Source: a virus. Taken from it: a stretch of DNA of 64,000 bases. Shown here in pieces: positions 908 through 64,000 of this stretch. Under the pieces are notes generated by a model, which was not told the origin of the DNA, did no database searches, and worked only from the letters and a program-made list of their open reading frames with translations. The translations under genes were made by a program, and so were the position numbers. The stretch is taken from the IMG/VR virus record IMGVR_UViG_3300017963_000192, positions 62,001 to 126,000 of that record. One strand, written 5' to 3'. Each line of letters starts with the position of its first letter. Within the stretch, counting starts at the first letter, position 1.

Positions 908-1626
908 TTTTTAAACAACTTCCCTGCTAAAGCATGAGCCTTGGCATCATATTCTTTTCCCATTCTTCCCTGAAAACCATAATCGCCATTGGTGGTTTGT
1001 TCTCCGTGTATTCTGTATGATGTCAAAACTTCTGGAACTTTATAGTATAAATAATACTGTGATATTCTAACAAGCATTTCGTAATCTTCGCAAGCGACAA
1101 ATTCCTCATTAAACATGCCAACTTTGTCAAATACGCTTTTATGAACCACCATATTACTCCACATCCCAAAGTAACTTCCTATAACAAATTGTTGTTGTTC
1201 CTCTAATGTGTTAAATACTGGTTCTACATAATGTGGATCACCTATTACATCATCTTCTCCAATAGTTTGCCAATCAGCATAAATAACCATTGCTTCAGGA
1301 TGTTCTTTAGCAAAAGCAACTTGCTTTTCTAATTTGTAAGATTTCCACATATCATCAGAACTTAATCCAGCCCACCAATCTCCAGTCATATTTCTAATTC
1401 CGGTATTTAGAGCACCGCAAGTTTTCTTGTTTTCCTGATGAATGATGGTTAGTCTTTCGTTCTTTTTAAATTCTTCTAAACAATCCAATGTTTCTTTTCT
1501 TGTAGAACCATCATCAACAACTATTATTTCATACGGCTTGTAGGACTGATTCAAAATACTGTTAATACTTTTTTCCAGAAAATCTGGACGAATATTGTAT
1601 ACTGGTGAAACTACTGATATTTTCAT
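904..1626 (-). CDS. Family 2 glycosyltransferase
   Basis: At 240 residues this is a compact GT-A glycosyltransferase. ISVVSPVYN at the N-terminus, VVDDGS at ~36-41 (nucleotide binding) and SSDD at ~89-92 (DXD-like metal site) are the family 2 hallmarks. A later CEDYEML segment fits the acidic catalytic-base region. It ends in TGA overlapping the next gene start and begins at the stop of the radical SAM gene. It probably transfers one sugar in a multi-enzyme glycan pathway carried by the phage. Confidence 0.82.
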   Translation of the reverse strand: MKISVVSPVYNIRPDFLEKSINSILNQSYKPYEIIVVDDGSTRKETLDCLEEFKKNERLTIIHQENKKTCGALNTGIRNMTGDWWAGLSSDDMWKSYKLEKQVAFAKEHPEAMVIYADWQTIGEDDVIGDPHYVEPVFNTLEEQQQFVIGSYFGMWSNMVVHKSVFDKVGMFNEEFVACEDYEMLVRISQYYLYYKVPEVLTSYRIHGEQTTNGDYGFQGRMGKEYDAKAHALAGKLFKK

Positions 1627-3707
1627 TATAAAAAATCCTCGTGTTTAATTTTTAATATTAGTTTATCCAATACAAAATTGTAATCATTATAGTAACATTT
1701 CACACACTGATTTCCATTAAAATATTTTTGTTTTTGATATATCTTTTTTAAATCTTGAATAGGCCCCATAGCCATACTATCACCACAACTTAAATCTGGT
1801 TCTTTTCTAGCATATTGCACACCGCAATTATGAAGAAGTATCCCAAATGAACTATAGAACATGTTTGTATTTTCAACTTGAATATCAAATAAGTCATCTG
1901 ACATTATTTTTTCAATTTTTTTAACTGGAACAAACATTAATCCATCTTTTTTATAAAACCCCAAAGCTCGTTTAGGACTTCGCCTAGTAACATCTAAATA
2001 TTTTATTTCAGGAAACATTGTTAATTTTAAAAGATTATAATTACCTGAAATTTTTACTCTATAGAGATCATGACAATTAACCTCTCTTTCTTCTATAACC
2101 ATCTTATCTCTTTTATGTATACTAATTGTAGCTATTATTCCTAATGTTGATAACAATAATACAAGATCACTTGCTAATTGCTTACTAATAGTAGAAAAAA
2201 TAATTCGGTATCCTTTATAACTTTTATTTGGTTTACCTAGATGCCCATCTCCGTCAAAATAACTTTTAAGAAACAATTCTTTTTGATAATTATTACAGTT
2301 AAAGATACTTGGTGGAATTCGTTTATTTAATGCATCACCACCACATTCTTTAAATATATTAAATAAGAGTTTAGAATATATATTTATCTGAAAACCTGTC
2401 CTTCTCTTATACACTTTATATTTATAATTGAATTTATTTAAAACTTTTTCTAATTTTTTTAATTTTTCTGTTGCATGTAATCCATATTTTAATTCTATAC
2501 TATATCCTTTATCACCTCTATCTGAAGAACATCCATCAGCAACATATTGTCCTTTTAACCAAACTAAATCGTCATCTATAAATGAGTCAAATCTACTAGT
2601 TTCAAAATCATTAAATTGATATTTAACTGGGATCAAATCATCAATTTCTATAGTATTTGCAAGTTTTTCTTCTAATGTATAATCATTTAACTCTTTAAAT
2701 CTTTCACTTTTAATATCTAAAGAACTACTTGTTACCATAATATGATCTTTAGATACTTCTATAAATCTATTATTCTTTAAAGTGATTCTTAAAATTTCTT
2801 CTGGAGGTTTTTTCCATACTTTTTTTATTTTACCATGTCCTAATGCCATGTCTCCTTCCTTAACTTCATTTACCCGTTTTGGAACAAGTATACCATTATC
2901 ATCAATTATAACAGTTTCATTAGAATTTAAACAACATGGATAAATATAACCATCTGCATTAATAACTGGTTTGAGTAAACTTATAAGACACTTCTCAATC
3001 CCAGGGTGAAATTCTTTTCTGCCTTGATAGATAACAATTGAATCATCTATATCGTGTGATTGAAGATACTCTTTGATAGTAGCCATTTCACTAACATCAT
3101 TTAGATTTAAAAGATTAGAAACTAATCTGACATATGCAGCACCTTTTTTATTAGAAAATTTTATGATTTTCTGTAACATTTCAAAATTTATATTGTCTGT
3201 CACAACATAACTAAAGCCCCAATCAACTGCACCACAATATTTTAAAATTTCTGCAATTTTAATTTCATAATCCCAAGTCCACTCCCGCAAATCTGAATGA
3301 CTAATTCTTAACCAGGTTATATTTTTTCGTAAATTACCAATTTTTATATTACTTAAAGCGATGCCATTAGTTGTAAGACCTACCTTCATTCCCAGATCAT
3401 TAATAATTTCAATTATTTCATTTATATTAGGATGAAGTAATGGTTCTCCACCTCCAGATATTGTTACAGCTTTACATCCCAATTCTGCGGCATCAGATAA
3501 GACTGAGATTGTATCTTGTAAAGACAATTCATCTTTTTGATTTCTATTAGCACAACTACAAAACTCACATTTGAGATTACATACATTTGTAGGATATAAT
3601 TGAATATGGTATGGTATTATTTTTCCATGTATATCAATCACTTTTTTATTTTGAATGAGTTTGGTTGGAAATGTGTCGGCTGCTGTATAAGATTCTATAA
3701 TTCCCAC
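1626..3707 (-). CDS. Radical SAM/SPASM-type protein interrupted by an intein
   Basis: The 693-residue precursor starts at GTG, preceded by AAAGGAG seven bases upstream. The radical SAM cluster motif C-x3-C-x2-C is at C43, C47 and C50, followed by the GGGEP segment at ~85-89. Near residue 258 the frame enters an intein (259-627), after which the extein resumes with CGVQYARKEP and a Cys-rich tail (CGDS and CVKC), giving a spliced enzyme of 324 residues. The Cys pattern after the junction resembles a SPASM auxiliary-cluster domain, so correct splicing would be needed to rebuild it. Neighbours are glycosyltransferases. The substrate is unknown; sugar or peptide modification is possible. Confidence 0.85.
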   Translation of the reverse strand: MGIIESYTAADTFPTKLIQNKKVIDIHGKIIPYHIQLYPTNVCNLKCEFCSCANRNQKDELSLQDTISVLSDAAELGCKAVTISGGGEPLLHPNINEIIEIINDLGMKVGLTTNGIALSNIKIGNLRKNITWLRISHSDLREWTWDYEIKIAEILKYCGAVDWGFSYVVTDNINFEMLQKIIKFSNKKGAAYVRLVSNLLNLNDVSEMATIKEYLQSHDIDDSIVIYQGRKEFHPGIEKCLISLLKPVINADGYIYPCCLNSNETVIIDDNGILVPKRVNEVKEGDMALGHGKIKKVWKKPPEEILRITLKNNRFIEVSKDHIMVTSSSLDIKSERFKELNDYTLEEKLANTIEIDDLIPVKYQFNDFETSRFDSFIDDDLVWLKGQYVADGCSSDRGDKGYSIELKYGLHATEKLKKLEKVLNKFNYKYKVYKRRTGFQINIYSKLLFNIFKECGGDALNKRIPPSIFNCNNYQKELFLKSYFDGDGHLGKPNKSYKGYRIIFSTISKQLASDLVLLLSTLGIIATISIHKRDKMVIEEREVNCHDLYRVKISGNYNLLKLTMFPEIKYLDVTRRSPKRALGFYKKDGLMFVPVKKIEKIMSDDLFDIQVENTNMFYSSFGILLHNCGVQYARKEPDLSCGDSMAMGPIQDLKKIYQKQKYFNGNQCVKCYYNDYNFVLDKLILKIKHEDFL
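1827..2933 (-). mobile_element. Intein with LAGLIDADG homing endonuclease (in radical SAM gene)
   Basis: The 369-codon in-frame insertion begins at a Cys within YPCC|LNSNETV and ends HN before a Cys (LLHN|CGV), the standard intein junction chemistry. Block A-like and block B-like segments (IDDNGILVPKRVNEVKEGD and VSKDHIM) are present. Two LAGLIDADG-type helices are visible, LKGQYVADG and LKSYFDGDGHLG, so the homing endonuclease may be active. The insertion point lies in the C-terminal Cys-rich metal-cluster region of the host enzyme. The first intein residue could be C258 or C259; C259 keeps CC in the spliced product. Confidence 0.9.
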
Positions 3708-29956: not shown

Positions 29957-30721
29957 TTATATTTTAGACTTTTTAAATTCCTTTAATTTTTTCTTTTCTA
30001 TTAGAGAAATACAAGCATCAACTACGTCAGAATCATACAATTTCCCCTTATTTTTACGAATTTCTTTTATTGCTTTTTTAAATCCTAAAGAAGGTCGATA
30101 AGGTCTGTGAGAAGACATTGCTTCAAGGACATCGGCTACCGCTAAAATACGAGTCTCTATAAGTATTTCATCACCTTTTAAACCTCTAGGATAACCTGAA
30201 CCATCCATTCTTTCATGATGTTGATATACTATTTCAGCAACAGGCCAAGGAAAATCTATTTCTTTTAATATTTTGTATCCTTTTAAAGGGTGTATTTTGA
30301 TTAAATCAAACTCTGTATCAGACAAGTCAGTTGGTTTAGATAAAATATCTGAAGGTAATCCTAATTTACCAATATCATGGACTGCTGCCGCTATTCTTAT
30401 TCCCTCAAGCATTCCATCTCTATTTTTAATTCCCATTTCCTCTCCAATATTTCTTGCAATATCAGCTACTTTTGATTGATGTCCAGCAGTATAAGGGTCA
30501 CGCATTTCGACAGCAGTAGCCATAGCTTGAACAACTCCAGAAAGGGCTTTCCTGAGTTTTTCTGGTATTTTTGTTTCTAATTCTATTTTTATGACTTCTT
30601 GTTTATTTTTTATGACGTGTTCGATTATTCTATAACCATTTTCTCTTAGAATGAATTTTAAATGTTCGTCTACAATAATACTATCTTTATCTATATAAAT
30701 ACCTTTATTGATATGTTTCAT
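29957..30721 (-). CDS. HD-GYP domain protein (c-di-GMP phosphodiesterase-like)
   Basis: The 254-residue protein carries an HD-GYP domain: H81 in TAGHQSKVA, HD at 115-116 in AVHDIGKL, HP at 144-145 and HHERMDGSGYP at 168-178, followed by RILAVADVLEAMSSHRPYRP. The catalytic residues expected of the family are all present, so cyclic-di-GMP hydrolysis is likely. The N-terminal ~50 residues contain no second domain. It stands alone next to a receiver-domain gene, as a split two-component pair. Phages seldom carry HD-GYP enzymes. Confidence 0.88.
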   Translation of the reverse strand: MKHINKGIYIDKDSIIVDEHLKFILRENGYRIIEHVIKNKQEVIKIELETKIPEKLRKALSGVVQAMATAVEMRDPYTAGHQSKVADIARNIGEEMGIKNRDGMLEGIRIAAAVHDIGKLGLPSDILSKPTDLSDTEFDLIKIHPLKGYKILKEIDFPWPVAEIVYQHHERMDGSGYPRGLKGDEILIETRILAVADVLEAMSSHRPYRPSLGFKKAIKEIRKNKGKLYDSDVVDACISLIEKKKLKEFKKSKI

Positions 30722-30736
30722 ATGTAGTCCTTTTAT

Positions 30737-31117
30737 TTATTCGTCTTTTAGACTTTTTGGAATTAATTTTTCAAGTCTACTAAGTCTAACAGCATTGTCT
30801 ATTGTTGCAAAAAGCATTTCTTTATCAAAAGGTTTTACTAAATACGTCTTTGGATTGTATTTATTAGCCTTTATTATAATTTCGTCATCATTCAATCCTG
30901 TTATGTAAATCAAAGGAGTATCTTCAAAATCCTCAAAACTGTTACTAATTCCACTGTCTACCAAGATAACATCGGGACTACTCTCTTCTATAGTTTTCGA
31001 AACCAGTTCTAAATCATTTGAAATCACTATTATTTCATTTTCAGAACCGCTAGTAACATACATATCAATTATTTCATTTACATCTGCGTTTTCACTCTCA
31101 ATTACAAGTATTCTCAT
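30737..31117 (-). CDS. Response-regulator receiver domain protein
   Basis: 126 residues with the REC fold: ILVIESENAD (acidic pocket), DVILVDSG with phospho-acceptor candidate D54, PLIYITG and the invariant Lys in YLVKPFD near 95. It has no output domain, so it probably acts by binding partners. It lies 16 bases upstream of the HD-GYP gene; in other bacteria such receivers are often fused to HD-GYP, which suggests the pair acts together. Confidence 0.82.
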   Translation of the reverse strand: MRILVIESENADVNEIIDMYVTSGSENEIIVISNDLELVSKTIEESSPDVILVDSGISNSFEDFEDTPLIYITGLNDDEIIIKANKYNPKTYLVKPFDKEMLFATIDNAVRLSRLEKLIPKSLKDE

Positions 31118-31124
31118 AATAAAC

Positions 31125-31436
31125 CTACTTCCACAAAAGTTTTAATAAGGCAAATGACACGATTATTACTGTTTGTACTACAATAAAAATCGTTACTATT
31201 TGCGTTTTAAACTTTTGAAGTTCTTTATTAGATTTTTCCAATTCTTCAACTCGATGTCTTAACCCGTTTTTGCCGTCAACACCCATAAGGACAACCTCAA
31301 TTGTTTTCATACGATCAAGCATTTCTCCAACTAGTTTGGAATTTTCTTTTTGGTTGTCGTTAAGTTCCTGGAGTTCTTTTAACACTAAATCTCTGTAAGC
31401 TTTTTCGACATCTGATTTACTATATTCGTTTGACAT
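31125..31436 (-). CDS. Membrane-anchored coiled-coil protein (XhlA/holin-like)
   Basis: 103 residues: a charged coiled coil (residues ~12-75) and a single C-terminal transmembrane segment (IVTIFIVVQTVIIVSFALLKLLWK). This topology resembles haemolysin XhlA-type proteins found in phage lysis modules (MKTIEVVLMGVDGKNGLRHRVEELEKSN is XhlA-like). In this position it might be a lysis protein or a membrane tether for the signalling proteins on either side. It ends in TAG. Confidence 0.55.
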   Translation of the reverse strand: MSNEYSKSDVEKAYRDLVLKELQELNDNQKENSKLVGEMLDRMKTIEVVLMGVDGKNGLRHRVEELEKSNKELQKFKTQIVTIFIVVQTVIIVSFALLKLLWK

Positions 31437-31439
31437 TTT

Positions 31440-32279
31440 CTATTTCCTTTTCTTCCTTCTGTCTGTTCTTTTTGAATAATTTTTTGCACATGAAACATCT
31501 TTAATAAGAATTATAGCTATAAATTTTTGCTTATCGATTGTACATCCCCTTGTTCTTATCTCTAATAATTTGCAAATATTATCCTTGTTGCAGAACTCGA
31601 CATCAAAAGATCTTCTTTCTCCTTTATCTATTGCGGATATAATGCTTTTACAGCCTTCTTCCGTTACACCAATATCATTAAGATGTACTCCAACCATATC
31701 ATTGATATTCTCACATTCTGCTATATTACAAAAACTGGGATTAACATCTTCTATAATCAAATCTTGAGAACAAATTGCAATGCCTTCAGTAGTTAATTCA
31801 ACCAAACGTTTATACCGATTTTGACTAATTCTTAATTGTTCAACTGTCTCTTTTTTAGAAGTAACATTACGTTGCATACCTCTAAATCCTATTATTCTGT
31901 TGTCATTAGAGTTTTTTAAAACATCAACAGATGTTTCGACCCATATTTTAATTCCATCTTTTCTTATAACTTGCCAATCAGTAATTTCATTTTTTTCTTC
32001 AGTTTCATAAACTTTACTAAATTCTTTATAAATTTTTTCTGCTGTTTTTTCGTCTGTATATTCTTTATAATTCATTCCAAAAAGTTCGTGTCTTGAATAT
32101 CCATACATTTCACAAAGAGCACGATTAAAAAAAGTTAAATTACCTTCTAAATCAACTTCATAGTATCCCTCATCAATACTCTCTAAAATGTTTTCATATT
32201 TATCTTTTGACTCTTCCAACCTTCTTTCTAATTTATTAAGTTGTGTTGTTATTTGTTCTATTTCATTTAAGTATGTCAT
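31440..32279 (-). CDS. PAS-domain sensor protein without output domain
   Basis: The 279-residue protein starts with a coiled coil (residues 1-30), then two PAS domains (~26-140 with GYYEVDLEGNLTFFNRALCEMYGYS and ~150-265 with GIAICSQDLIIEDVNPSFCNIAE). The KDGIKIWVETSVDVL and GFRGMQRNVTSKKE segments are typical PAS/PAC. There is no kinase, cyclase or HD region, so it must signal by protein contact. It is within the STAS-REC-HD-GYP cassette. It ends in TAG next to a basic tail. Confidence 0.82.
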   Translation of the reverse strand: MTYLNEIEQITTQLNKLERRLEESKDKYENILESIDEGYYEVDLEGNLTFFNRALCEMYGYSRHELFGMNYKEYTDEKTAEKIYKEFSKVYETEEKNEITDWQVIRKDGIKIWVETSVDVLKNSNDNRIIGFRGMQRNVTSKKETVEQLRISQNRYKRLVELTTEGIAICSQDLIIEDVNPSFCNIAECENINDMVGVHLNDIGVTEEGCKSIISAIDKGERRSFDVEFCNKDNICKLLEIRTRGCTIDKQKFIAIILIKDVSCAKNYSKRTDRRKKRK

Positions 32280-32293
32280 TTTATATATCCTAT

Positions 32294-32587
32294 CTACATT
32301 AATTTAAAAAACTTATCAAATGAACTGATTTTTAATAAATCAAACAAACCTTTATTTATATTTATCAAAGACACTTCTTTATCAAAAGATTTTTGTTTTT
32401 TTACCAATGCTACTAAAACACCTAATCCAGAAGAGTCCATACATTTAACATTTATCATATCCACAATTATATCTCTATCATTAGGAATTTCTGTTAATAA
32501 TTCTTTTTTGATTTTCACAATATTTTCTATACATAACGCATCTTCTACCACTATTATATATTTATCGTTTTCTATTTTTATTTCCAT
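32294..32587 (-). CDS. STAS domain, anti-sigma-factor-antagonist-like protein
   Basis: A 97-residue STAS domain with DSSGLGVL at 51-58, the serine-containing loop that SpoIIAA-type antagonists use for phosphorylation by their partner kinase. Start chosen at the ATG ending 32587, with AAAGGAAATC upstream; a longer frame to 32638 lacks a clear ribosome site and overlaps the neighbour. In known systems STAS proteins release sigma factors or other targets by partner switching. Ends in TAG. Confidence 0.8.
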   Translation of the reverse strand: MEIKIENDKYIIVVEDALCIENIVKIKKELLTEIPNDRDIIVDMINVKCMDSSGLGVLVALVKKQKSFDKEVSLININKGLFDLLKISSFDKFFKLM

Positions 32588-32795
32588 TTTTTGATTTCCT
32601 TTTTTCTTCTGTTGAAGAAAGTTCTTCTTGATAAGCAAAAGAATTTATAAGTTGTTCGTTTGTTAGCTTACCTTGTTTTATTAATATAAAACCCAACAAA
32701 CCTCCTTCGTGTCTTTGAATGTTAAGAGCTGTACTAACATCCTCCCTTGATACATATCTAAGTTTTATTAAAATTTCCCCAACTTTTTTATTCAT
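32562..32795 (-). CDS. MshEN-like small protein
   Basis: A 77-residue protein, start at ATG ending 32795 with AAGGAAAAAATA upstream. The core VGEILIKLRYVSREDVSTALNIQRHEGGLLGFILIKQGKLTNEQLINSFAYQEE matches the repeat pattern of MshEN / GspE N-terminal domains (LGELLVERG-ITEEQLEEALAEQ), which bind c-di-GMP in MshE. Here only one repeat-like unit stands alone, with a basic tail. Association with an HD-GYP gene makes c-di-GMP binding a reasonable but unproven idea. Confidence 0.55.
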   Translation of the reverse strand: MNKKVGEILIKLRYVSREDVSTALNIQRHEGGLLGFILIKQGKLTNEQLINSFAYQEELSSTEEKRKSKNGNKNRKR

Positions 32796-32805
32796 TATTT
32801 TTTCC

Positions 32806-33393
32806 TTACTTACCATTATTATCAAAATCATTCAGATAATTAATCGCATCTTCATATTCATCATACACTTTAAATAGGTTATACACGCTTAATCTTTTTG
32901 CAATTTCATATGATCTCCCTCTAAAACCATAAAAGGCGAGAGATCTATTACATTTTTTAAAATGTTCTGAAAGATGTATAAATACACCTACTCCAGATGA
33001 ATCGAATAAACTTAATTTGGAGCAATCTAGTATTGCATGTAAAGTTGTTTCGTATTTATTACAAATTATTTTATATGTTTCGAGAATGTTTTTTAAAGTA
33101 TTAGGGGTATTGTATATTGTAAGTTCTTTGAAATTTAATTTAATATTTAGAATGTTGTTTATTTTATCAAAAGAAATTGAATTGTCTAAAGAAACATCTC
33201 TTTTTTCTTTTTTATAAGGTTCACTTAATCTTTCAAGCCAATCACATGGTTTGTTAGAATTATTAATGCTATCAATCCCATCATTAGTGAAAGCATTAAA
33301 AAAATTAGGGTGTCTTTCCCAATCATATTTATGTTCGGAAACCAGGTTGTTATTCTCAAATTTATTTTCGAGTAAAGTTTTTTCATACTTCAT
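32806..33393 (-). CDS. STAS domain protein with N-terminal extension
   Basis: 195 residues: an ~80-residue unstructured or helical start, then a STAS domain (residues ~85-190) with ILDCSKLSLFDSSGVGVFIHLSEH and FYGFRGRSYEIAKRLSVYNLF. The DSSG loop again provides the phosphorylatable serine. It is the second STAS protein in 1.2 kb. The N-terminal extension may fix it to another component of the cassette. Function in partner switching is inferred. Confidence 0.75.
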   Translation of the reverse strand: MKYEKTLLENKFENNNLVSEHKYDWERHPNFFNAFTNDGIDSINNSNKPCDWLERLSEPYKKEKRDVSLDNSISFDKINNILNIKLNFKELTIYNTPNTLKNILETYKIICNKYETTLHAILDCSKLSLFDSSGVGVFIHLSEHFKKCNRSLAFYGFRGRSYEIAKRLSVYNLFKVYDEYEDAINYLNDFDNNGK

Positions 33394-34774: not shown

Positions 34775-35424
34775 TATTTCTTCTCCACATAACTAAGAAC
34801 ATACCCTTTAGCAGTTAAATCACCAGTACCATTTCTTCTCTGTTGAAGAATTCTAATTCTACTACCTTTTTGATAATTTAAATCTAGATAAAGTGTTGAT
34901 ATGTTGTTGACATAGCTAAAATCTATATCTTTCATTGTGATACCGTCATCATCTACAATAACTTTCTTTAGGGAATTTAAAGGAGCTTGAAGAGCAACTT
35001 CATCATCAATTTTTACTCTTATTTTCTCAAGATTATCACATTTATACACAAACTCAGAGAACCATTTTTTCTCCGACCCAAAATCTATGTCATAAAATTC
35101 TGTCCAACCATCATCAGTACATTCGTGTGTAACATCTCCACTAGTAGAATCATATTCCCTTCTAAATCTATCTGATCTAAAAACATTATCTTTTATTTGG
35201 TTGTTGGCATTGGATGTATAATTAGCTTCATAGTCAATTACACTTGAAGCATGGCGCACTTCGTCTATGTAACATATATATAATAGATGTTCTCCATCTG
35301 GAGCAAACAAGGTATAATATTTAGCTCCTCCAGTAGATGTTATTATATGCTGATATTGAAGATTCTTTGTTTCAGAATCTAATACATGAGACTTATATTC
35401 AGTATATGTTAATTTAAGTTCCAT
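34774..35424 (-). CDS. Fibre-like structural protein, paralogue B
   Basis: 216 residues sharing an N-terminal domain with its downstream neighbour and carrying a C-terminal part with EKIRVKIDDEVALQAPLNSLKKVIVDDDG and a basic end (RIRILQQRRNGTGDLTAKG). It overlaps both neighbours by one base. Tandem paralogues suggest a duplication within the appendage genes. Role inferred from position. Confidence 0.55.
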   Translation of the reverse strand: MELKLTYTEYKSHVLDSETKNLQYQHIITSTGGAKYYTLFAPDGEHLLYICYIDEVRHASSVIDYEANYTSNANNQIKDNVFRSDRFRREYDSTSGDVTHECTDDGWTEFYDIDFGSEKKWFSEFVYKCDNLEKIRVKIDDEVALQAPLNSLKKVIVDDDGITMKDIDFSYVNNISTLYLDLNYQKGSRIRILQQRRNGTGDLTAKGYVLSYVEKK

Positions 35425-37988
35425 CAGTAAACTTCCCTAAATGATAATGATGCGTGCATCGTTGATGATGTTCCTAACGACTTTCCTACTAAAACCAGGA
35501 TATCTCTATCTCCAGAATAATTAGACACAAGTTTTAAAAGCATTTCTGGTACTTCGCTTGCTAACTGATTTCTATCAGCACCTTGACTAGATACAAACAT
35601 ATCTTCTATTTCTTCTCCACCGCTATACGCAGATGCTGTTATATCATATTCAGCAATTGAATTTGTACCAGCAGATACCCAGGATGCTCCAGTAAGTGTC
35701 GCTCCATGAATAAGTTTAACATGAACCAATGTATTTGATTCATTGTATGTTTTAAAGGTTAATGGTAATATTTGTGCTCGTTTATACGTTTCTTTCAATC
35801 GTAAAGCGATAATAGGTACATACGTTGCTCCAACAACACGGTCAGCGGCACCTGTCGTAACACTCCTTGTAACACCTTTGGGGTTATACCCTCCCTCACT
35901 CTCAATTTCAACACATACGTTATCCATATATGTATTACTTGCTGTAGAAGATGTATTTTCTATTTCATATCGTAGTGGTAGATTAGCTGTCTGCATATAA
36001 ACTTTATCTATAATATTAGCATGTAGAAATTGGTGGATATAGTAGAATTCTCCATCTATACTAAATCCCATACGAACACGTCCCATACCTAACCACTGAA
36101 TGTCCAATATAAATATTTGACCTTTAGATACATCTACTGTAATAGCACTTTTACCAGTACCATCTAAAGTATCTATATTCCAGTCATCTTGTTGTACTTT
36201 ATTTTCTACAACAGAGCCAGTAGTATAGCTCCTTTCTACTACATACAAACCGCCAGTAGATGTTTGTTCAAAAAATACACCATTATAATCATCAAAGTAT
36301 CCAATTCTTTTTACAACACCAGCTTTTTCAGACCCCATTATTCCTGTCATGGCAATTCTGAGAGAATTATGTTCATAAAATGATGTTAAATACGTATTAC
36401 CATCAGGTACACCTATAGCAACAGTCCATTGATATCCAATAATTTCTATAGACTCAACGATATCCCATCTTAAACTATCTTGTATATTTTTAAATAAATA
36501 TTTGAATTTAGTACTTTCTTTTCTATTTTTAATTTTATTATAGACTTTTTCTACATCTTCTTCTTTTCCGTAAATTCCAATCTCTTTATAGAATAATTCT
36601 ATATCTTTTTTTGAATGTAATGATAGTATATAAGCTCTGCTACATTCTTTACCATTACATTTAGGAATTTTTGAATGTATGTTTCCATGTATTCCAAACT
36701 TTAGTAAAAGTTCCTTTATATCTTTCACGAGTTGTTCTGAAATAGAACAATACCCAATCTCATCTTTAAACGCCCATCCATCAGTAGAATACAATCGAGA
36801 AAGAAACGTAGTTATAATTTCTTTTGGAGATTCAAATATATCATTTGGAATAAATTTATATGCGGAAGATTTCCCCAATAATTCAACTTTTCGTAAAAGT
36901 TTAGTAATTCCATTTTTTCCCTTTCTACTTCCATTTTTATAAACTACATGATAAGAATTACTATCGCCTTTCTTCTTTTTCAACACACAATCATATTGTC
37001 CTACTAAAGACTCAAATTCGTCTAATTGGCTTCCTTTGTTTTGACTAAATGTTACATGATGTGCAGATATTCCACCATCTCCTATAAGATAAGCTAAAAT
37101 TTTAGCATCTGATTCTGTTAAATTATTATTAGTTCCAAAAATTGGTAATGTATCAGCTATAGCAACAAAATCTCCTATTTTAATATTTTCAAGATTAGTC
37201 CATTCCTTAATATTGAAGTGTGGTTTATTTCCTTTTTTCCAAAAAGTTTTATAATATTTTTTTCCTACCCACAGTGGATGTTGAGCATTACCACATAATT
37301 CATTTCCAGATTTAGTTTTTATTTTATATATAGGTTCATAAGCATTCCATTCTGCTATAGCATCTACTTCTATTCTTTTTCCATCTCTAACAGTTAAAAG
37401 TTTAAACTCTGTATCAACTAAATCTTTAGCTTGTATTCTTCTACCATCAGCCAATGGTATATAATCAGAAGCTAATCTGCATTTACCTGGCTGATAATTA
37501 AAATACTCTTTAGTTTGTCGGATTACTTTATCACCATTTGCAGTTGTACATTCCAATCTTGTAGAAGCCTCGTTACTTCGATAAGTAGCTGTTCCTCCAC
37601 CAGTAAGTACGTTATTCCAAAATAATGGTTGGTCATTAAAAATTTGTGTTGAATCAAATAATGAATGAGGATTGCCAGTTCTTAATCGTGAGAAAGCATC
37701 AAGGTTAAAACTATCTGAAAACGTGGTTGTAACAGATATAGCACTATCCACACCCCTAGATGCTCCATCAGCATAATTATTTATATAGTCATCATAATCA
37801 GCAGTGCCATATTTTATTATTGTATAATAAGTAAATTCGTTAGATTGCCTTACACGAACAGTAAGATCGCTAACATCACTTTTAAGAGCGTGGTCGTATC
37901 CAAATTTAGGATTTGCATCTATTATAGCTTTTAAATCTAACCATTTTGGTATTTCTATCGATTGTACTATACTTCCTGACGCTGCCAT
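35424..37988 (-). CDS. Structural (appendage) protein interrupted by an intein
   Basis: The 854-residue precursor splits as N-extein 1-169, intein 170-541 and C-extein 542-854. The joined extein reads YFNYQPGK-SLRIAMTG..., followed by KRIGYFDDYNGVFFEQTSTGGLYVVERSYTTGS and DWNIDTLDGTGKSAITVDVSKGQIFILDIQWLGMGRVRMGFSIDGEFYYIHQFLHAN. I recall this type of extein sequence from large-phage virion proteins but could not check. The insertion sits in the YQPGKS segment, so splicing is needed for function. It heads an appendage gene run. Confidence 0.7.
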   Translation of the reverse strand: MAASGSIVQSIEIPKWLDLKAIIDANPKFGYDHALKSDVSDLTVRVRQSNEFTYYTIIKYGTADYDDYINNYADGASRGVDSAISVTTTFSDSFNLDAFSRLRTGNPHSLFDSTQIFNDQPLFWNNVLTGGGTATYRSNEASTRLECTTANGDKVIRQTKEYFNYQPGKCRLASDYIPLADGRRIQAKDLVDTEFKLLTVRDGKRIEVDAIAEWNAYEPIYKIKTKSGNELCGNAQHPLWVGKKYYKTFWKKGNKPHFNIKEWTNLENIKIGDFVAIADTLPIFGTNNNLTESDAKILAYLIGDGGISAHHVTFSQNKGSQLDEFESLVGQYDCVLKKKKGDSNSYHVVYKNGSRKGKNGITKLLRKVELLGKSSAYKFIPNDIFESPKEIITTFLSRLYSTDGWAFKDEIGYCSISEQLVKDIKELLLKFGIHGNIHSKIPKCNGKECSRAYILSLHSKKDIELFYKEIGIYGKEEDVEKVYNKIKNRKESTKFKYLFKNIQDSLRWDIVESIEIIGYQWTVAIGVPDGNTYLTSFYEHNSLRIAMTGIMGSEKAGVVKRIGYFDDYNGVFFEQTSTGGLYVVERSYTTGSVVENKVQQDDWNIDTLDGTGKSAITVDVSKGQIFILDIQWLGMGRVRMGFSIDGEFYYIHQFLHANIIDKVYMQTANLPLRYEIENTSSTASNTYMDNVCVEIESEGGYNPKGVTRSVTTGAADRVVGATYVPIIALRLKETYKRAQILPLTFKTYNESNTLVHVKLIHGATLTGASWVSAGTNSIAEYDITASAYSGGEEIEDMFVSSQGADRNQLASEVPEMLLKLVSNYSGDRDILVLVGKSLGTSSTMHASLSFREVY
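36366..37481 (-). mobile_element. Intein with LAGLIDADG homing endonuclease (in structural gene)
   Basis: A 372-codon in-frame insertion starts at Cys (GK|CRLASDYIPLADGRRIQAKDLV) and ends HN before Ser (YEHN|SLRI). Hint-type motifs at both ends include CGNAQHPLWV and VAIGVPDGNTYLTSF. Two LAGLIDADG-like helices, AYLIGDGGIS and LSRLYSTDGW, sit in the middle. The C-extein nucleophile is Ser. The insertion lies between Lys and Ser of a GKS segment in a conserved extein motif. Confidence 0.88.
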
Positions 37989-61373: not shown

Positions 61374-61400
61374 GATATTTTTTTATTGGTTTATAAAATT

Positions 61401-61472
61401 CGTCCCTGACAGGAATCGAACCTGCTATACATAGTTTTAGAGACTATTGCCTAGCCATTTGGCTTCAGGGAC
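61401..61472 (-). tRNA. tRNA with anticodon CUA (amber suppressor, Gln-like)
   Basis: The minus-strand 72-base RNA folds as a full tRNA: acceptor GTCCCTG/CAGGGAC, D-arm GCC/GGC with AAATGGCTA loop, anticodon stem ATAGT/ACTAT with loop CT-CTA-AA, variable GTATA, T-arm GCAGG-TTCGATT-CCTGT, discriminator G73. Anticodon CUA reads UAG. G73 and the GCC-A..GGC D-arm match tRNA-Gln, so glutamine charging is plausible. CCA is not encoded. A8 differs from the usual U8. Confidence 0.88.
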
Positions 61473-61480
61473 GAGTAACT

Positions 61481-62060: not shown

Positions 62061-62089
62061 AATTTATTATAAAAGTTACAGTTTGTCAA
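62061..62089 (-). promoter_or_regulatory. Sigma70-like promoter of suppressor-tRNA operon
   Basis: Minus strand TTGACA (62089-62084) is a perfect -35; with a 17-base spacer the -10 is TAAATT (62066-62061). A TATAAT also occurs at 62071-62066 with only 12 bases between, so the exact -10 is unsure. It follows a terminator, and a ~140-base leader follows. Confidence 0.6.
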
Positions 62090-62090
62090 T

Positions 62091-62125
62091 AAAAAAACCC
62101 TTCTAAAAATAAGGAGGGTTTTTTT
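62091..62125. terminator. Rho-independent terminator ending the RNA array
   Basis: Minus RNA CCCTCC-TTATTTTTA-GAAGGG followed by seven T residues; the mirrored A/T runs allow either direction. It closes the transcript from the 62705..63448 gene and the tRNA-like array. Confidence 0.75.
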
Positions 62126-62223
62126 ATTGGTTTTCTGTTCAATTCTGCTCAATTCTTATCTCTTCTGTTCAGTTCTCGTCATATCTTTTCAGCTCTTGCC
62201 ACCTCACTTCTTTTAACTAATTT

Positions 62224-62270
62224 GACCAGCTAAGTAATGAACTTAGAAAACTTCTTTAAAAGTTCTGGTC
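62224..62270 (-). ncRNA. 47-base tRNA-like element, copy 1
   Basis: Folds as closing stem GACCAG/CTGGTC, hairpin AACTT-TTAAAG-AAGTT, two bases TT, and hairpin CTAAG-TTCATTA-CTTAG. Relative to copies 2 and 3 every stem has compensatory base pairs. Followed by AAATTAGTT. No D-arm. Confidence 0.6.
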
Positions 62271-62284
62271 TTTTCTACTCTTAA

Positions 62285-62369
62285 CTTCTCAGATCTAAAC
62301 TATTCAAATCTCGTCTACTCTTAACTTGCCTGATCTAGTCTGTTCCTATCTTATAACTAATTTGGGCAG
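62285..62369. repeat. 85-base direct repeat, left copy
   Basis: CTTCTCAGATCTAAACTATT... to GGGCAG; same 85-base unit recurs at 62582..62666 with only a few mismatches. It joins spacer to the start of an RNA element, showing that element and spacer duplicated together. Confidence 0.65.
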
Positions 62370-62410
62370 TTAGGTAACGAACCTAATTAATTTCTTTAAA
62401 AATTCTGCCC
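62364..62410 (-). ncRNA. 47-base tRNA-like element, copy 2
   Basis: Closing stem GGGCAG/CTGCCC, hairpin AATTT-TTAAAG-AAATT, linker AA, and TTAGG-TTCGTTA-CCTAA. Identical layout to copy 1 with covarying pairs; conserved TTAAAG loop and T-arm-like loop. Followed by AAATTAGTT. Confidence 0.65.
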
Positions 62411-62518
62411 TCCTCTGTTCTGGACAATTCTTTTCTTTCCTATTCTTTACTCATCAAAACTATCCTACTCTACTCATGTCTGCTCTTTTCTTCTCTCCTC
62501 TTTCCATTTAACTAATTA

Positions 62519-62565
62519 GGGCAGCCAAGTAATGAACTTGAACAATTCCTTTAAGAATTCTGCCC
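62519..62565 (-). ncRNA. 47-base tRNA-like element, copy 3
   Basis: Closing stem GGGCAG/CTGCCC, hairpin AATTC-TTAAAG-GAATT, linker GT, and TCAAG-TTCATTA-CTTGG (one G-U pair). Pairs changed in both helices compared with copies 1 and 2 keep the fold. Followed by TAATTAGTT. Confidence 0.65.
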
Positions 62566-62581
62566 TCTTTGCTATTCTTGT

Positions 62582-62666
62582 CTTCTCAGATCTAAACTAT
62601 TCAATTCTCGTCTATTCTTAACTTGCCTGATCTAACCTGATCTTATCTTATAACTAATTTGGGCAG
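62582..62666. repeat. 85-base direct repeat, right copy
   Basis: Right copy of the repeat starting at 62285; it leads into the fourth, larger RNA element. Confidence 0.65.
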
Positions 62667-62721
62667 TGGAGGATTAGAACCTCCACTAACAAACCAAAGT
62701 TATATTAACCAACCTTTGCCC
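62661..62721 (-). ncRNA. 61-base tRNA-like element, copy 4 (larger)
   Basis: Minus RNA has closing stem GGGCA/TGCCC, hairpin AAGGTT-GGTTAATAT-AACTTT, linker, and AGTGGAGG-TTCTAAT-CCTCCACT, with tRNA-like T-arm. Same three-way-junction order as copies 1-3 but longer. Its 5' end overlaps the last 17 bases of the gene ending 62705. Too short and lacks an anticodon stem, so it is not a normal tRNA. Confidence 0.5.
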
Positions 62722-63448
62722 AATTCTTATCTTTGATAACTGGATTAAATGGTTCAATGGTGTCTGATGCAACAATGCCTTTAATTGAATATGTTCCATA
62801 TGTTCCAGAATTTTCCGGTCTCCAGGCACCGTATCCAGATAATGCTCCAGCTTTTACTATTATCTCAGTCATTTGTTCTGGACTAATAACGTTTTCATCA
62901 AAAGCAACTCTTAAATTTAAAGTCCAATCAGAAAACATTGCTCTGTAAAAAGGCACCAAACTCCCTTTCTTACCACCGAGATTTCCAAGTTCAATGCTTT
63001 TATCGTACTTTTTATATTTAATTGGAATTAAACCTCTCCTTGCTGTAGGAACTACAAAAATAGCCGCCTCTAATGCTTTTTTCATTTTTCTTCCTAGGAG
63101 ATTTTGACCAACATTTACAAACGATTTTTTAAATCCTATTGCAGGTACTCCTACTAAACCTTTTTTTTCATCGAGCCAATGAGCCTTTCCTTTACATTCC
63201 TCATCAGGGTCAACTGCTTTGGTTCTTTTAAGGATTTTATTTTTTTCTTTTTCAAAATCTTCTCTTCGCTCTTTTAAAAGATTTTTTGATTTTGCGTTTT
63301 GAAGAAGCTCTGTTTGCCCTTCAATAACAAACTCAATCCACGAAATAAATCGAGATGGCTCTATAATATTTAGATTATCTTTTACAGAGCCTCCCTTTTT
63401 TTCTGCTTTTTTGCCTAATTCTTGTACACTATCCTTTTTCTTTGGCAT
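62705..63448 (-). CDS. Conserved phage-like hypothetical protein
   Basis: 247 residues. N-terminal Lys-rich coil, then SRFISWIEFVIEGQTELLQNAKSKN and DPDEECKGKAHWLDEKKGLVGVPAIGFKKSFVNVGQNLLGRKMKKALEAAIFVV, ending with LSGYGAWRPENSGTYGTYSI. The GxGxWRPExxGTYG ending recalls a widespread phage protein group of unknown function. Its stop overlaps the RNA element at 62661..62721. Confidence 0.5.
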   Translation of the reverse strand: MPKKKDSVQELGKKAEKKGGSVKDNLNIIEPSRFISWIEFVIEGQTELLQNAKSKNLLKERREDFEKEKNKILKRTKAVDPDEECKGKAHWLDEKKGLVGVPAIGFKKSFVNVGQNLLGRKMKKALEAAIFVVPTARRGLIPIKYKKYDKSIELGNLGGKKGSLVPFYRAMFSDWTLNLRVAFDENVISPEQMTEIIVKAGALSGYGAWRPENSGTYGTYSIKGIVASDTIEPFNPVIKDKNWAKVG

Positions 63449-63474: not shown

Positions 63475-64000
63475 TTAAATCAAAGGCTCATATTCATTCA
63501 CAATTTCTTGTAAAATACTAATCACCTTTTTTAATCTTTTTTCTATTGCTATAAAATGTAAATTTGCTTCACAATCATTTATAAGTGCTTTAGCTAATTT
63601 AACATATTGTAATGCTTGTTTCTTATCATCTATAATTATATCCGATAAATATTGAATCCTTTTATATTTTTTGTTAGATGTTGTTTTTACTCCATGAGAG
63701 CTATATTGAACAGGTATCTCTTTAAGAGAGTGTTTTATTATTTTATTGGCTGGTGCTTTTATTCTTGGTATAGGAACAAATGTAATAGACCTTTCTAATT
63801 GAGATATTTCTCTTGAAACATAAAGCAAATGCCCTTTCTTTTTATCCATAGTTAGAAGCTTGTGTATTTCTCTAAAATTATTAGAATCATATTGCTTTAT
63901 TAACATCTTTGCTATTTCTTTTGTAGTTTCTGCTCCAGTTTCATTTAAAAATTTGTAATAATCTTCTATACAAAGATTTTCATCAATATTTTTGCTTATC
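63475..64000 (-). CDS. Hypothetical protein, 5' end beyond the window
   Basis: The frame is open from 63475 to the window edge. An internal ATG ends at 63906, but the upstream codons (IDENLCIEDYYKFLNETGAETTKEIAKM) are in frame without a stop, so the real start is probably outside. Contains TTKEIAKMLIKQYDSNNFREIHKLLTMDK, a possible winged-helix segment, and basic KKKYKRIQYLSDIIIDDKKQALQYVKLAKALI. Function unknown. Confidence 0.55.
   Translation of the reverse strand, partial: ISKNIDENLCIEDYYKFLNETGAETTKEIAKMLIKQYDSNNFREIHKLLTMDKKKGHLLYVSREISQLERSITFVPIPRIKAPANKIIKHSLKEIPVQYSSHGVKTTSNKKYKRIQYLSDIIIDDKKQALQYVKLAKALINDCEANLHFIAIEKRLKKVISILQEIVNEYEPLI

Follow-up and report, generated by a model that had tools for sequence, protein, structure and literature searches.

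A very probable VIPR locus with WGA-scaffold guides and tRNA-like tails in a 218-kb phage

VIPR was first described in a preprint of 27 April 2026 (PMC13142463), whose main text defines it as a phage RAMP protein (Vipr) together with vrRNAs of 9–16 YNNGG repeats (GGY/NN) and, usually, a vap gene. Each repeat tract is followed there by an invariable structured tail, a pseudoknot in the Felix O1-like SUSP1 clade; in SUSP1, the model phage, sRNA-seq reveals the vrRNAs, and the tail is kept on a vrRNA of ~100 nt. According to the same text, double-stranded DNA is read through the NN pairs, which skip one base, and competing phages, satellites and prophages serve as targets. Arrays interspersed with hammerheads are also reported, and scaffold consensuses related to GGY are allowed but left unspecified (PMC13142463). 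VIPR has been proposed as an ancestor of CRISPR and as a programmable tool of very small size for recognising DNA.

Here we analysed a 64,000-nucleotide stretch, the window (bases 62001–126000 of the 217,703-base record of a giant phage of 218 kb), and find that a locus on its minus strand (Table 1) is very probably a VIPR system, with a Vipr gene, four guides of 16–19 repeats and 47-nt elements serving as guide tails. Like the VIPR loci of SUSP1 and the P. fulva prophage, as these appear in the main text of the preprint, it combines a RAMP protein with pentamers having two hypervariable bases, a tail per tract and several guides, intergenic beside vipr. It is a known kind of system that differs from that main text in scaffold triplet and tail structure: its scaffold is WGA and not GGY, its tail is a three-helix tRNA-like element (acceptor plus T-arm) and not a pseudoknot, its tracts have 16–19 repeats, it has no recognised vap or other recognisable accessory gene, and its host is a 218-kb phage. 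Scaffold, tail type, host and missing accessory gene are new with respect to that text, as are the true minimal tRNA mimics of a separate VIPR clade described below; the word 'tRNA' does not occur in the main text, and the supplement may mention such tails or scaffolds (PMC13142463). The WGA scaffold, the repeat numbers above the published 9–16, the missing vap-like gene, the lack of any target found and the modest TM-scores given below all speak against the VIPR assignment. In its favour are the array, the covarying tails, the RAMP fold and the family-wide linkage, all observed here; the array, its tie to a RAMP protein, the structured elements between tracts and the partner gene were reached independently of the preprint, from which the code, repression as the function and the tail concept are taken. 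With class 1 CRISPR (Csm/Cmr crRNA and Cas7 filament) the locus shares a Cas7-like fold and a structured handle capping the guide tract, but it has neither CRISPR repeats nor a cas operon near the gene, and its unit is 5 nt long with interrupted guide letters.

Table 1. Features of the candidate VIPR locus (window coordinates).
Feature	Position	Strand	Basis
Candidate accessory gene, upstream of vipr	63475..64000, continuing beyond the window (open frame as far as 64128 on its scale)	-	position
vipr, 247-aa Cas7-like RAMP protein	62705..63448	-	phrog_4652 match, AlphaFold model, fold matches
U4, 61-nt tRNA-like element (acceptor, D-arm-like hairpin with GG, T-arm UUCUAAU)	62661..62721	-	fold z, Rfam score
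Leader AAATTAGTTA, conserved 10 nt, before guide 1	62651..62660	-	sequence
Guide 1 repeat tract, 17 pentamers NNWGA	62566..62650	-	periodicity
U3, 47-nt structured tail of guide 1	62519..62565	-	fold, covariation
Leader TAATTAGTTA before guide 2	62509..62518	-	sequence
Guide 2 repeat tract, 19 pentamers	62411..62508	-	periodicity
U2, 47-nt structured tail of guide 2	62364..62410	-	fold, covariation
Leader AAATTAGTTA before guide 3	62354..62363	-	sequence
Guide 3 repeat tract, 16 pentamers, paralogue of guide 1	62271..62353	-	sequence repeat
U1, 47-nt structured tail of guide 3	62224..62270	-	fold, covariation
Leader AAATTAGTTA before guide 4	62214..62223	-	sequence
Guide 4 repeat tract, 16 pentamers	62134..62213	-	periodicity
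Terminator hairpin ending the transcript, replaces a fourth tail	62087..62129	-	18-nt inverted repeat, 94% complementary

The vipr product matches phrog_4652 (E=3e-15); it has no Pfam match, a single-protein scan with it returned no relative, and no DNA similarity to phage records was detected. It is homologous to the Felix O1-type protein, whose family includes that of SUSP1, and has relatives in Felix O1-like, Gordonia, Mycobacterium, Pseudomonas and Listonella phages. Identity between the window Vipr and the relatives aligned with it is only ~17–29%. In an AlphaFold model built from 79 members (pLDDT 82, pTM 0.73), the best 50 PDB matches listed by Foldseek were all CRISPR RAMPs (Csm3, Cmr, type VII subunits or complexes; best E=6.6e-7), with TM-scores that were modest, 0.4–0.58 for most. 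Moreover, the protein carries the motif AGxxxGxGxWRP...G, which by inspection we equate with the RAMP glycine-rich loop and whose G201, G205 and G218 are invariant in the 79 members.

A period-5 array adjoins the gene in every named-phage locus fetched, none of which was picked for having one, with GGTNN repeats in Felix O1 types, GGCNN in actinophages and Pseudomonas phages and GCANN in phiHSIC. Among 166 IMG/VR loci fetched by protein similarity alone, 163 have period-5 arrays, nearly always beside the gene, and the other three (L174, L243, L268) are contigs that end within ~0.6 kb of it; the median best score over the 166 loci was 2.48 for period 5 versus 0.92–1.20 for periods 4, 7 and 8. 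Two partner families directly follow the gene, in 53 and 48 loci, the first of which (winged-helix-like by eye) is probably the vap1 of the preprint (PMC13142463). Neither was found near the window vipr, where no vap-like gene could be recognised; the candidate accessory gene, whose end lies 26 nt from vipr, has no detectable homology. In the Mycobacterium phage Gorge (L142, 3833–5050), the annotation fuses vipr and its partner into a single ORF, a hint of joint working unless the record contains a frameshift. In LittleE (L138/L223) and phiHSIC (L140), the two genes occupy the opposite strand within tail or structural clusters, in the manner of a mobile cassette, and helix-turn-helix genes adjoin vipr in Medea1 and Ecliptus. 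Two further loci (L212, 4693–5090; L215, 1–285) contain a single long continuous tract instead of separate guides, resembling the staggered or single-guide arrays of the preprint (PMC13142463).

The initial annotation had described the spacers between the structured units as purine-rich, which they are, but not merely so: their exact 5-nt periodicity, the strongest feature of the locus, had been missed. Each is an uninterrupted run of NN-(A/T)-G-A pentamers, preceded by a conserved 10-nt leader, (A/T)AATTAGTTA. The fourth pentamer place is G in 68/68 units (the best of 20,000 shuffles reached 37), and places one and two come close to random (1.90 and 1.88 bits), with the other three constrained (0.87, 0 and 1.09 bits). 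The same screen yielded no further 14-unit period-5 tract in the window. A duplication noted previously among the spacers is real and spans 102 nt at 90% identity. Guide 3 is a diverged duplicate of guide 1, with 10 differences over 83 positions, six of them at the first N; taken as codon positions 1–2, these changes would be mostly conservative, which is suggestive only. The NN pairs of guide 1 are TA TA TC TT TC CA TA AT CG AT AT TT TC GA CA AT AA, and by the published rule it would read TA.TA.TC.TT.TC.CA.TA.AT.CG.AT.AT.TT.TC.GA.CA.AT.AA. With exact seeds required, no target of any guide searched was found in the phage itself, in viral contigs or in genome contigs (the own-genome scan used 0–3 base skips, and guide 4 was run only against sequences fetched for this analysis); matches were at chance level and mostly in other frames or unrelated genes. 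A natural rival carrying the targets may be absent from the collections searched. TRAP-type binding sites have a spacing that NAGNN resembles, but the TTG/ATG units and the RAMP link make them an improbable reading.

We then considered the structured units. As had been claimed, three units of 47 nt and one of 61 nt share the same order of elements, all on the minus strand, and each folds better than its own dinucleotide shuffles (z -2.9 to -3.3; U4, z=-3.2). In the alignment of U1–U3 the three-helix plan is paired in 48/48 cells. The compensatory changes reported for all three stems were borne out, with double-sided changes in 7/16 pairs distributed over all three helices and only 0–1 left when partners were slid by 1–3 columns. 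Placement of the units in the 3′ region of a gene applies to U4, the first array element, which overlaps the vipr stop codon (62705), and not to the others, which are intergenic; the terminator said to close the array is real. The T-loop of U1–U3 is UUCAUUA or UUCGUUA, without the canonical A58, which is present only in U4 together with a D-loop-like GUUGGUUA.

These features had been likened to stripped-down tRNAs, and functional tRNAs or tRNA decoys, with the purine-rich spacers as mere linkers, would account for the acceptor-like and T-arm-like stems (the top half of a tRNA or of the tRNA-like domain of tmRNA), for the D-loop-like GG, near-canonical T-loop and weak Rfam tRNA score of U4, and for the true minimal tRNA mimics in related arrays. 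Sequence inspection of U1–U4 revealed, however, neither an anticodon arm nor a CCA end, the T-loops of U1–U3 are non-canonical, ARAGORN called none of the four as a tRNA, and with the Rfam tRNA model (RF00005) U4 scored 19.4 bits against a gathering threshold of 29 and U1–U3 gave no match. Since this reading also leaves the perfect spacer periodicity and the RAMP linkage in 163/166 loci unexplained, we regard it as highly improbable and the elements as tails between VIPR guide tracts.

Tails of comparable design occur in related VIPR loci. With a T-arm defined as a stem of at least 5 and a loop TTCRANN, T-arm density on the gene strand was 0.139/kb in arrays versus 0.011/kb outside (~12-fold), and arrays contained 15 on the gene strand versus none on the opposite strand. 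In L213, L223 (LittleE), L224 (Trine), L225 and L228 the T-arms lie within acceptor stems of 5–6 bp, nearly always with a 10–11-nt, D-loop-like linker containing GG. Seven such elements, chosen by pairing, are paired in 77/77 cells with covariation in 10/11 pairs; because they had been picked by pairing, linker length and GG are the more independent evidence. A covariance model of such elements (R1) identified 17 such places in LittleE/Trine-type loci; its matches in L277 and L230 were weaker, and another 70 loci gave none. Like the window tails, those of the LittleE/Trine clade (L213, L215, L223, L224, L225, L228) have an acceptor stem followed by a T-arm and stand between tracts, but they have the GG linker and a canonical TTCGANT loop where the window tails have a 5-bp hairpin and an altered T-loop. 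R1 gave 3 bits for U2 and U3 and recognised only the T-arm of U4 (9.3 bits, E=0.11), so that the window tails fall outside R1 and have only its architecture in common. A model of the window tails themselves (R2) found nothing significant in other loci or in the rest of the phage; homologues with covariation are therefore lacking for the exact 47-nt sequence and not for the architecture. Since related loci of other phages hold acceptor plus T-arm mimics at the corresponding position, the initial annotation was right in form to propose a phage ncRNA family with tRNA-like elements, though the family is not new, having been described in 2026. The Vipr proteins of loci with R1 tails form one clade of eight (support 0.94) that excludes the window Vipr; tRNA-like tails thus either evolved in two or more lineages or represent an ancient trait.

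The strand bias of the T-arms also bears on whether the array works as DNA, such as an origin, centromere or partition site, rather than as RNA. Its direct repeats and the similar AGANN runs in replication genes of other phages would fit such a site, yet the G-strand and the T-arms keep to the gene strand (15 versus 0), the stems covary as RNA, a terminator ends the array and the RAMP fold of the linked protein is an RNA-binding one; in SUSP1, moreover, published sRNA-seq reveals vrRNAs, as the main text reports (PMC13142463). We therefore consider a DNA site extremely unlikely. The AGANN runs are purine tracts of 8–10 units in or just before replication-type genes of unrelated IMG/VR phages (including L013, L016, L017, L019, L036 and L082; by eye, replisome organiser and DnaB-like helicase genes). 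They suggested a replication origin or DnaA-trio, which was set aside, no homologue being encoded there: a four-sequence seed model detected no VIPR relative at these loci. The runs may represent a charged linker or an origin element.

For the VIPR system that we favour, the order of repeats and then structured tail agrees with the published vrRNA (PMC13142463), and by analogy the window copy would work in the same manner. The Cas7-like Vipr would coat guide RNAs built of tandem pentamers, the three scaffold bases (A/U-G-A) presumably being held by one protein subunit per pentamer and the two variable bases left free for DNA pairing; the NN pairs would read the target with one base skipped between them, following the published rule, and the complex would act as a repressor of genes in competing phages, satellites or prophages. 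The transcript would run from vipr or upstream of it through the four guides to the terminator, each guide comprising a leader (AAATTAGTTA), 16–19 pentamers and a structured end (U3, U2 and U1 for guides 1–3, the terminator hairpin for guide 4), and U4 would lie where the vipr message meets guide 1. The most likely role of the tails would be to mark or shield the 3′ ends of the guides, and enzymes that process tRNAs may recognise them.

RNase P recognises a core of acceptor and T-arm, and from this established knowledge of its substrates we infer that RNase P or related enzymes could be used here. It is possible, though less likely than not, that in some VIPR systems the minimal tRNA-like ends of the guides are recognised by RNase P, RNase Z or CCA enzymes of the host for maturation or stabilisation, that such mimicry originated at least twice (in the LittleE/Trine clade and in the window phage), and that the window protein also reads WGA. 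The tails might be RNase P/RNase Z-type signals for cutting the precursor into single guides (tRNA punctuation) and not handles retained on the mature guide. We deem this possible but doubtful: the tails contain the RNase P core and separate neighbouring guides, U4 lies at the mRNA/guide border and hammerhead-interspersed VIPR arrays have been published, but the T-loops of U1–U3 are non-canonical and, according to the main text, the SUSP1 tail stays on the ~100-nt vrRNA (PMC13142463). An Rfam hammerhead search of 19 loci gave no match.

The occurrence of another scaffold triplet implies that GGY may be a replaceable part of the code, and protein comparison could reveal the residues that read it. 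Tails of tRNA-like form would make guide maturation depend on tRNA enzymes and would link tRNA mimicry to RNA-guided systems. In addition, the locus extends VIPR to a phage of 218 kb and provides several independent loci for comparing structures.

Other features of the window were noted in passing, all on the minus strand. Beside the VIPR locus, at 61400–61473, lies a tRNA with a CTA anticodon, labelled tRNA-Pyl by ARAGORN and probably an amber suppressor. Judged by eye, an intein containing a LAGLIDADG-like endonuclease seems to be inserted in each of two proteins, one of radical-SAM type (1626–3707) and one of structural type (35424–37988), and positions 29957–33393 contain a row of genes resembling, by eye, HD-GYP, PAS and STAS signalling genes, which is unusual in a phage.
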